NCBI GenBank assembly: GCA_014379585.1
Contig: JACMLN010000091.1
Span: 1 to 34,380 of the forward strand
From: Gloeobacterales cyanobacterium ES-bin-313
GTDB taxonomy: Bacteria > Cyanobacteriota > Cyanobacteriia > Gloeobacterales > Gloeobacteraceae
DNA length: 34,380 bases
Direction of reading: 5' to 3'
The number at the start of each line of letters is the position of its first letter. The first letter of the stretch is position 1. Below are positions 2,096 through 5,122 of this stretch, in pieces. The notes under the pieces are model-generated. The model saw only the letters and a program-made list of their open reading frames with translations, was not told the DNA's origin and did not search any database. The translations under genes were made by a program, and so were the position numbers.

Positions 2096-3496
2096 TTATT
2101 CTGCCACGGCGCTTAAAAAGATCTGAGGACTCGCCAGAAAAGCTTGTATAGCCGAACTTTGCTTCAAAGCGTTGTTGACACAGTCTCCAATCGAGATGCC
2201 GCCGAAGTAGTTGCCACAGAGAAATAATCCTGGCCACCGCTCCAATCGCAGCTCGACACGTTTTTGTTTGGCGAGATGTCCGAGGGCGTATTGGGGGATG
2301 CCTTGTTGCCAGCGGGTGACTCGCAGACAGCGGTAGGTTCCTTGGATACCGAGCACACTTTGTAATTCTTGGTGGGCAAGGGTGATCAATTCCTGATCCG
2401 AAAGTCCTGCTGAGGCTGTGTCAGTTGTCCCACCGATAAAAGTAGTGAATTGTCGCCAGCCCGAGGGAGCGCGGTGGGGAAAAAGACTACAGTTCCAAAT
2501 ACTGCCGAGGGTGCGCAGACCTTGCCCTCTCGGTATGAGATGACCAAAGCCTTCAAGGGGTTGTGGGATTTGGGTCGTCTGATAGCCAAGACTGATCACT
2601 GCAATAGGGGGAGAATAAATACTTGCCAAAGAGCGATACAGTGCGTCATCCAAAGGGGCTAGCAATTCCGCCGCAGCCATGGCTGGAGTTGCTAGCAAAA
2701 CGCTGCGAGCATGGATCGTGATCAGATCCCCCCTGTAGCTCACAACCGCGCGCCAACCAGCCTGTATCCGCTCCAAACTGATCAGGGTTCTCTCGCACCA
2801 AAGTCGGCTACCGAGCGAGGAACCCAAAGCGTTTGTGAGCGTCTCCATCCCCTCTTTAAAAGTGCAGAAGGTCGTCCCGGCTCTTACTCTTTCGCGGGAC
2901 AGCCATAGACTGCGTAGGATACTGCCGTAGTTCGTTTCCGCTGCGACTGCCCGCCCCAAAGTGGCTGATGCACTCAGTTGGCCGATATCCCCAGCAAAAA
3001 TGCCCGAAATGAGCGGTTCAAATAATCGCGAATGGATTTCTTCGCCGCATCGCCGATAGATAAATTCCGAAACCGTTTCTTCGCGATTAACATCGTCGAG
3101 GCGTGGTACAAGCAGTTCGCGCATGAATCGCGTCTTGCCCCCCCAACTCAGCAGATCTGAGCGCAGAAATTGACTGACATTAAAAGGAATTGCCCGCAAA
3201 CGACCTTCCCACCACACATAACGGGGGAGACGGGCATCTGCGTCGCAGCGCTGATCTTCAATACCGAGCGAAGCAATCAGTTCATCAAGATTTGTCGTGC
3301 GTTGAAAACTGTTCGGTCCACCTTCACAGAGAAACTCGTCGCTTTGCTCTGTGGTGATTGCTCCTCCAAACCGTTCACTACCGTGGCAGAGAAGGACTAG
3401 GTAGCCGCTGCTGTGGAGTCGCCAAGCTGCCGTTAAACCGCTCACGCCACCACCGACAACCAAGACATCAAGGGATCGATCTAAATCAACTTCCAC
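2096..3496 (-). CDS. hemY: Oxygen-dependent protoporphyrinogen oxidase (HemG/HemY type)
   Basis: This FAD enzyme oxidises protoporphyrinogen IX to protoporphyrin IX, the last common step of heme and chlorophyll synthesis, at the membrane. The 466-residue product starts with the dinucleotide-binding fold VLVVGGGVSGLTAAW (residues 11-25). It has the substrate-side GGPNSFQ motif near residue 60 and ends with the family's second FAD-contact region (GLFLCGNYFGGISIGDCVNN), which includes the NYxGGxSxGDC pattern typical of the family. Length is normal. It lies 79 bases downstream of the DUF2811 gene and just upstream of the chorismate lyase gene on the same strand, suggesting a tetrapyrrole/quinone transcript. 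Confidence 0.93.
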   Translation of the reverse strand: MEVDLDRSLDVLVVGGGVSGLTAAWRLHSSGYLVLLCHGSERFGGAITTEQSDEFLCEGGPNSFQRTTNLDELIASLGIEDQRCDADARLPRYVWWEGRLRAIPFNVSQFLRSDLLSWGGKTRFMRELLVPRLDDVNREETVSEFIYRRCGEEIHSRLFEPLISGIFAGDIGQLSASATLGRAVAAETNYGSILRSLWLSRERVRAGTTFCTFKEGMETLTNALGSSLGSRLWCERTLISLERIQAGWRAVVSYRGDLITIHARSVLLATPAMAAAELLAPLDDALYRSLASIYSPPIAVISLGYQTTQIPQPLEGFGHLIPRGQGLRTLGSIWNCSLFPHRAPSGWRQFTTFIGGTTDTASAGLSDQELITLAHQELQSVLGIQGTYRCLRVTRWQQGIPQYALGHLAKQKRVELRLERWPGLFLCGNYFGGISIGDCVNNALKQSSAIQAFLASPQIFLSAVAE

Positions 3497-3575: not shown

Positions 3576-3776
3576 TTACGAACTTTTTTGGAACAGGGTA
3601 TTCAAGTAGGTGCGCGCGGCGCGGCGATCACCATTGCCATTTTGTAAAAGAAAGAGCGAAAGGGCGGCTGTGAAAATACGATTTTGATCCCAATCTGGAT
3701 GGCCGTCCAAATAGAGTTGGAGTGTGTCATGCAATTCTTCGGGGATTTCAGCTAGGATACTTACCATTGTTTTCAT
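3576..3776 (-). CDS. DUF2811 family small protein
   Basis: This is a 66-residue protein of the cyanobacterial DUF2811 family, whose function is unknown. The family pattern is clear: MKTMVSILAEIPEELHDTLQ, then YLDGHPDWDQNRIFTAALSLF and a C-terminal NGNGDRRAARTYLN helix. The open frame reaches back to 3866, but the extra residues (MCAVRMTCQ...) look non-coding and Cys-rich, so I start at the ATG at 3776; a second ATG is at 3767. It sits 79 bases upstream of hemY on the same strand and may share its transcript. No catalytic motif is visible. Confidence 0.85.
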   Translation of the reverse strand: MKTMVSILAEIPEELHDTLQLYLDGHPDWDQNRIFTAALSLFLLQNGNGDRRAARTYLNTLFQKSS

Positions 3777-3901
3777 AAGAGTCTCACTCGACGGACACAG
3801 GTTGCAGACCATTGTTGGCCCGAGAGATGACTGTGTCAATTGGCATGTCATCCTTACAGCACACAATTGCTTCCATCACTTCATTGATCCAATCGTACTA
3901 T

Positions 3902-4030
3902 GTCAAGTATTTTATTTACTTAAGTTTACAAAATGCTGCTCGACCTGTGGAAAACTTTTTCCACAGGCAGCTCCTCGAAAAGGAGGTTTAGCGTAAGTAC
4001 CCTGTGGAGAATCTGTGAGTAACCTGTGAG
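3902..4030. other. Gene-free stretch with DnaA-box-like cluster beside AT-rich DNA
   Basis: The 425 bases between the DUF2811 start and the gene at 4202 hold no convincing gene. Within them an AT-rich run (3902-3933) lies next to two head-to-head copies of TTTTCCACA, which matches the DnaA-box form described for cyanobacteria: the complement at 3946-3954 and the direct copy at 3957-3965. A one-mismatch copy TGTGGAGAA follows at 4003-4011, and further CTGTG words occur to about 4030. This arrangement resembles a small replication origin or a DnaA-controlled promoter. No dnaA or dnaN lies nearby, so the origin reading is only a hypothesis. Confidence 0.35.
3944..3967. repeat. Perfect 24-bp inverted repeat containing two DnaA-like boxes
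   Basis: CCTGTGGAAAA (3944-3954), a two-base centre CT, and TTTTCCACAGG (3957-3967) form an exact palindrome with 11-bp arms. The centre is too short for a good RNA hairpin and there is no T tract after it, so a DNA-binding site is more likely than a terminator. Confidence 0.8.
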
Positions 4031-4201: not shown

Positions 4202-5122
4202 GTGGATCAAAGAGTAAAGTTTGGCCTCAAGGTTCTTTTTAGTTTGTTGCTGCTTGGGTTGATAAGTCGCATTATCGATATTCCCAGGACAGCCCAAGTG
4301 CTCACCAGTGTGGATGCACGCTTTCTTGGTCTGGCCATTGTTGTCTTTGCCATAGGCCAAGGGCTCAACGCTGTGAAATGGTTTTGGCTGGGTCAAGCAC
4401 TGGCTTTGCCCTGTAGCCTGGGAAACTACCTGCGCCTTTACACCATGGGCATGTTTTTGGCGATTTTTCTGCCAGGAAGCATGGGGGGTGATTTAGGGCG
4501 GGCTGTCTTGCTCACGCGAGAGGGTTTACCAGGATGGACGACGACCTACTCAGTTCTGGCGGATCGCTACAGTGGCCTCTTATTTTTATTGATTTTAAGC
4601 AGTGTGGCCTGTCTGAATGTTCCGGCTTACAGCAGTCTTTCGCCCTGGCTTTGGGCGTTGACTGGGCTTGTTTTGCTCGTATGGCTGCTCTTAGGGCGAG
4701 GAAGCAGGCTGCTCTTGCCTCTCCTACCCAAAAAGCTGAAGTCCTACGCAGAGCCGATCCCAGGTTGGGAAAAGCAACTGCGCAACTGGCCAAATCTGCT
4801 GCGCATCGGCGGTGGTAGCCTTGCTATTCAGGCAATCAACTGGGGAGTGCTGTTACTTCTGGCTGGAGCTATGCATCTCCAGGTCAGTGCACCTGCCTTG
4901 ATGACCGCCTACGGTTTAATTACCCTAGCAAGCCTTGCTCCCCTGAGTTTGAATGGTCTGGGGATTCGCGAAGGCGGTTACGTCCTGCTCCTCAAGCAGG
5001 TGGGGGTGGCCGGAGAACAGGCAGTGAGTTTTGGTTTTTTGTGGTTTATCGTCTACACGTTTACGGGGCTGTTATCTGGCACTGCTTGGTGGGTGAAGGC
5101 TCCCGAGACATCTAAGGCTTGA
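4202..5122 (+). CDS. LPG synthase transmembrane-like (UPF0104/AglD) membrane protein
   Basis: This is a 306-residue polytopic membrane protein with about seven or eight hydrophobic helices. It contains family landmarks: FLAIFLPGSMGGDLGRAVLL at about residues 85-104 and LSLNGLGIREGGYVLLLKQ at about 247-265. These match the integral membrane region of lysylphosphatidylglycerol synthases and the UPF0104/AglD group, whose stand-alone members are often linked to lipid or glycolipid transfer or export. The soluble aminoacyl-transferase domain of true MprF is absent, so lysyl-PG synthesis should not be assumed. Translation starts at GTG (4202). The 3' end overlaps the convergent dehydrogenase gene by 11 bases. 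Confidence 0.8.
   Translation: MDQRVKFGLKVLFSLLLLGLISRIIDIPRTAQVLTSVDARFLGLAIVVFAIGQGLNAVKWFWLGQALALPCSLGNYLRLYTMGMFLAIFLPGSMGGDLGRAVLLTREGLPGWTTTYSVLADRYSGLLFLLILSSVACLNVPAYSSLSPWLWALTGLVLLVWLLLGRGSRLLLPLLPKKLKSYAEPIPGWEKQLRNWPNLLRIGGGSLAIQAINWGVLLLLAGAMHLQVSAPALMTAYGLITLASLAPLSLNGLGIREGGYVLLLKQVGVAGEQAVSFGFLWFIVYTFTGLLSGTAWWVKAPETSKA

Follow-up and report, generated by a model that had tools for sequence, protein, structure and literature searches.

The sites datA, DARS1 and DARS2 of E. coli are non-coding, carry IHF/Fis sites and are not bound to one gene family. They are short DnaA-box arrays away from oriC, and so is the locus described here. The action of DnaA as a transcription factor on box arrays is also already known, and the closest case in kind is the sda promoter. 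In Bacillus subtilis, sda is activated by DnaA and has an array of DnaA boxes upstream (PMC4447404). Our locus likewise has such an array upstream of a very small gene, and we propose for that gene, which encodes a DUF2811 protein, the same use of DnaA as a transcription factor linked to the state of replication. Sda is a sporulation checkpoint protein, whereas DUF2811 occurs almost throughout a single phylum and usually disappears together with dnaA. The cyanobacterial oriC lies as a rule next to dnaN and is built of TTTTCCACA boxes (PMC4674748), the same box as at our site.

How cyanobacteria control the start of replication is poorly understood, and DnaA has been given up entirely in several lineages. 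In Synechococcus elongatus, dnaA is an essential gene, DnaA ChIP is an established method and an HA-tagged DnaA has been described. The open-access literature yielded no account of a cyanobacterial cis cassette linked to DnaA. In this study, we believe that DnaA probably binds the stretch examined and controls the DUF2811 gene from there, and that the product of this gene would serve DnaA-driven replication.

Box cluster and genes at the locus

The window, that is, the whole stretch of DNA analysed (34,380 nucleotides, 51% G+C), is contig C98 of the 198-contig assembly of Gloeobacterales cyanobacterium ES-bin-313. Its features are collected in Table 1. The initial annotation had reported two exact boxes facing each other, a one-mismatch copy about 40 bases on and an adjoining AT-rich run. 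All of these are present, the weaker box lying 37 bp beyond the facing pair. The repeat itself falls short of the perfect 24-bp palindrome that had been claimed, since its perfect arms are 11 bp long around a 2-bp centre. The gene layout was also described correctly, with two minus-strand genes on the left and the plus-strand LPG-synthase-TM gene on the right, and neither dnaA (contig C8) nor dnaN (contig C35) lies on this contig.

Table 1. Coordinates of the features around the box cluster (positions in the window)
Feature	Position	Strand	Remark
Protoporphyrinogen oxidase gene	2096-3496	-	downstream of DUF2811
DUF2811 gene (PF10929)	3576-3776	-	66 aa; presumed target and partner
CAATGG	3809-3814	-	-10-like
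TTGACA	3834-3839	-	-35-like; counterpart of the TTGACA upstream of other DUF2811 genes
AT-rich stretch	3899-3943		interval between boxes and promoter; 73% A+T; no DnaA-trio repeat
Inverted repeat CCTGTGGAAAA-CT-TTTTCCACAGG	3944-3967		22/24 matching
Exact DnaA box TTTTCCACA	3946-3954	-	left half of inverted repeat
Exact DnaA box TTTTCCACA	3957-3965	+	right half of inverted repeat
One-mismatch DnaA box TTCTCCACA	4003-4011	-	
LPG-synthase-TM / flippase-like gene	4202-5122	+	divergent

Single boxes occur across the window at chance level (13 versus 11.6 expected). The whole genome of 4.26 Mb holds 45 exact boxes, from which only about 0.01 pairs as close as the facing pair are expected genome-wide, so the pair is above chance. 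An Rfam search of the region gave chance-level matches only. The initial annotation had proposed looking for the palindrome in close relatives. Among the 59 genomes searched, the palindromic arrangement was seen in this species only. The conserved feature is the cluster, not the palindrome, and the local arrangement of two exact boxes and one weaker box was seen in no other genome.

The 66-aa protein matched DUF2811 with 97.8 bits, against a Pfam gathering score of 26.6. An AlphaFold2 model showed three helices at moderate confidence. The PDB gave no match, either by sequence search or by Foldseek with the model, and NCBIfam gave no DUF2811 match. A guess that the protein has a ribbon-helix-helix fold found no support, with no such kinship in Pfam at E<=10. 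A phage copy of DUF2811 was looked for and none was found, and no open-access paper containing the term DUF2811 was found. Protoporphyrinogen oxidase neighbours DUF2811 also in G007, a member of a sister family. The divergent LPG-synthase-TM gene is probably not the conserved target, because sister families have a different neighbour in its place.

The box array upstream of DUF2811 in cyanobacteria

Boxes were present upstream of DUF2811 in all nine genomes of the order (9/9). For example, Gloeobacter has two inverted boxes 46 bp apart, and the sister families have 2-3 boxes in tandem at 11-bp spacing. The far-side gene changes from family to family, but the box cluster stays with DUF2811. We then considered 80 named cyanobacterial DUF2811 loci, 77 of which had enough upstream DNA. 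An exact TTTTCCACA or TTATCCACA box lay within 650 bp upstream of the gene in 76 of these 77 loci, and TTGACA was found upstream in 75. The box density there was 2.56 per kb, compared with 0.034 in the flanks (a 75-fold difference) and 0.02 in the reversed control. Of 101 distances between neighbouring boxes, 94 were 11, 12, 21 or 22 bp, which places these boxes on one side of the helix. The distance from TTGACA to the nearest box had a median of 174 bp (IQR 167-174). As at sda, a conserved DnaA-box array thus stands upstream of the promoter of the gene. An alignment of the control regions (n=31) has a conserved layout that starts with AT-rich TTTTg.AATTcTTat, followed by a graded series of boxes; after the boxes come GGGGAtt, GTaAc.aaaA and, last, CATTGACAA.CC with a -10-like element. 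The f18 and G006 lineages carry at the same place an array of TTATCCACA, the other classical DnaA box.

The plasmid-borne DUF2811 paralogues of Nostoc, Aulosira and Acaryochloris mostly have the same cassette, and the one plasmid exception is the copy on Acaryochloris pREC3, which is without boxes. Because the cassette travels with DUF2811 paralogues while the far-side gene changes, it belongs to DUF2811. This bears on the possibility that the site titrates or modifies DnaA, as datA, DARS and the DnaA-box clusters of B. subtilis do, rather than acting through DUF2811 transcription, and that the linkage is structural or selected for chromosomal position. The array geometry is similar to that of datA/DARS-type sites, and other recurrent clusters with 21-bp phasing exist, for example beside guaA. 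However, the cluster goes with DUF2811 to plasmids and paralogues at a fixed distance from the promoter, and loss of dnaA is accompanied by loss of DUF2811 itself, while a pure titration site needs no gene. We therefore consider a titrating or modifying site unlikely, although it deserves some weight.

The DUF2811 paralogues on large plasmids (L276, L277 and L279-L282) have DnaA-box arrays of their own, and in Nostoc C057 the gene is close to a ParM/StbA gene. In the small-genome family f4 (L203-L206), DUF2811 is present as 2-3 paralogues, and several of these are preceded by a separate box pair.

Comparison with the replication origin

DnaA-trios beside DnaA boxes have been described as the origin-unwinding element (PMC8287927). 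In the genome studied, seven boxes, none with more than one mismatch, are packed into about 170 bp upstream of dnaN, and the DnaA-trio-like repeat CTACTACTACTA lies upstream of the same gene. Six further genomes of the order (6/8 relatives) have 7-9 boxes and a CTA-repeat trio upstream of dnaN. Altogether, a 7-9-box cluster with a trio could be placed in eight of the nine genomes of the order (all but G008), this one included. In G007, unlike the related genomes, the densest box cluster, with seven exact boxes and a CTA-repeat trio, lies about 1.25 Mb from dnaN (L026 5041-5243; G007:C1 ~2,796,040-2,796,243); either the origin or dnaN may have moved in this genome.

The initial annotation had suggested an origin at a non-standard locus and proposed a genome-wide count of boxes. 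The count went against it: the denser cluster is elsewhere, with seven boxes upstream of dnaN against three here. The window holds no triplet run of the CTA/TAG type, whereas (CTA)4-5 occurs at dnaN-type clusters; no DnaA-trio of this kind stands beside a box at the site, and trios were found at only 2 of the 80 DUF2811 sites. Adjacency to dnaN or dnaA is likewise lacking, both genes being on other contigs. The oriC-type clusters of these genomes have 7-9 boxes and a DnaA-trio, whereas our site has two or three boxes, lacks a trio and is tied to DUF2811.

For three complete relatives, GC skew was computed from 40 samples per genome, each 20 kb long, and compared with shuffled samples by permutation. 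The sampled skew was no stronger than the shuffled one (P 0.59, 0.23 and 0.20). Within this non-significant skew, the minimum lay near the trio-bearing cluster in G001 and G007. The minimum of G004, equally non-significant, was at about 3.43 Mb, nearer to the DUF2811 locus (3.72 Mb) than to dnaN (1.29 Mb). Exact cyanobacterial DnaA boxes adjoining AT-rich DNA would also suit an origin. Given the trio-bearing clusters elsewhere, we hardly credit that the site is the chromosomal replication origin or a second one.

Joint presence and loss of DUF2811 and DnaA

DUF2811 was found in 190 of 194 genomes of the cyanobacterial class and DnaA domain IV in 189, and 187 of these 189 DnaA-positive genomes have DUF2811. 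A second sample, which overlaps the first, comprised 391 genomes with a completeness of 95% or more. Among them, 48 were without DnaA, which here means no PF08299 match and so either loss of the DNA-binding domain or extreme divergence; 28 of the 48 were scored so by absence from the positive list. DUF2811 was absent from 39 of these 48 genomes, broken by internal stops in 3 and intact in 6. A naive Fisher test of the co-loss gave 1e-37, a value that ignores kinship and draws on two overlapping samples. The losses of DnaA are scattered over several genera and families, and five genera are of mixed status (g147, g84, g210, g178 and g118). For example, in g84 the DnaA-positive G135 and G177 have DUF2811, and the four DnaA-negative members do not. 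Free-living cyanobacterial examples of DnaA loss have been named (PMC7198777). The loss appears wider than those examples, given the 48 of 391 genomes, the many families and the genera of mixed status.

The six DnaA-less genomes with intact DUF2811 had 1, 0, 0, 0, 1 and 0 exact boxes, compared with a mean of 1.66 elsewhere (P ~2e-4), and TTGACA was retained in the region in five of the six. Two of the broken copies have the AT-rich element immediately in front of what remains of the gene, which looks like a deletion of the part from the boxes to the promoter. The earlier claim of a DnaA-regulated site is thus well supported by the boxes found upstream of DUF2811 throughout the phylum and by their decay where dnaA was lost. 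The same decay bears on whether the site binds another regulator or is a chance cluster. DnaA binding has been deduced from sequence, and inverted repeats often bind dimeric regulators. However, the palindrome is not conserved, the boxes are enriched 75-fold and switch to TTATCCACA in some lineages, and in genomes lacking DnaA it is they that decay, with the promoter mostly kept. Another regulator or chance is therefore very unlikely in our opinion.

We return to the control of DUF2811 by DnaA. DnaA likely binds here and controls the gene, a step that the comparison of genomes supports well. We propose that DnaA would assemble on the short, helically phased array upstream of a sigma-70-type promoter, probably as an ATP-DnaA oligomer because the boxes are phased and graded, and that the bound DnaA would set the output of the DUF2811 promoter much as it does for sda in Bacillus subtilis. 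The position of the array upstream of the -35 element makes activation more likely than repression. DUF2811 would act in some process confined to DnaA-driven replication, the simplest being feedback on DnaA or on initiation. We infer in this way the binding of DnaA itself, the direction of the regulation and a role of DUF2811 in DnaA-dependent replication control. Points against this reading are the six DnaA-less genomes that retain an intact DUF2811, the pREC3 copy without boxes, the small number of boxes in the window genome itself and their singular arrangement, the moderate-confidence model of a protein with no match in the PDB, and co-loss counts uncorrected for kinship.

Because it is near-universal in cyanobacteria and usually lost with DnaA, DUF2811 is a strong candidate for a hidden part of cyanobacterial replication control. 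A small family that occurs in nearly all DnaA users, is usually lost with DnaA and is preceded by a conserved box array offers a concrete, testable component. For Synechococcus elongatus, the regulation of DnaA has been attributed to as-yet-unknown factors (PMC6478999). More tentatively, and at somewhat less than an even chance, DUF2811 may be one of these factors, a partner or regulator that is devoted to DnaA in cyanobacteria and stands under DnaA's own control from an ancient cis-regulatory cassette.

Other box clusters were also seen. In several cyanobacteria, three boxes 20-22 bp apart lie beside guaA (L196 2735-2785, L197 2332-2381, L198 2292-2343 and L199 2312-2361), and in L198 and L200 its neighbour is a conserved protein that matches no Pfam family. 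The cluster may be a second site of DnaA regulation or titration. A box pair also occurs at matching places in this genome and two others (G000:C175:31311-31331, i.e. L014 2312-2332; L027 ~2950-2971; G003:C1:185190-185211). It occupies the gap that precedes a short conserved reading frame, next to tatC and a frame that we take, by eye only, to be yidD-like.
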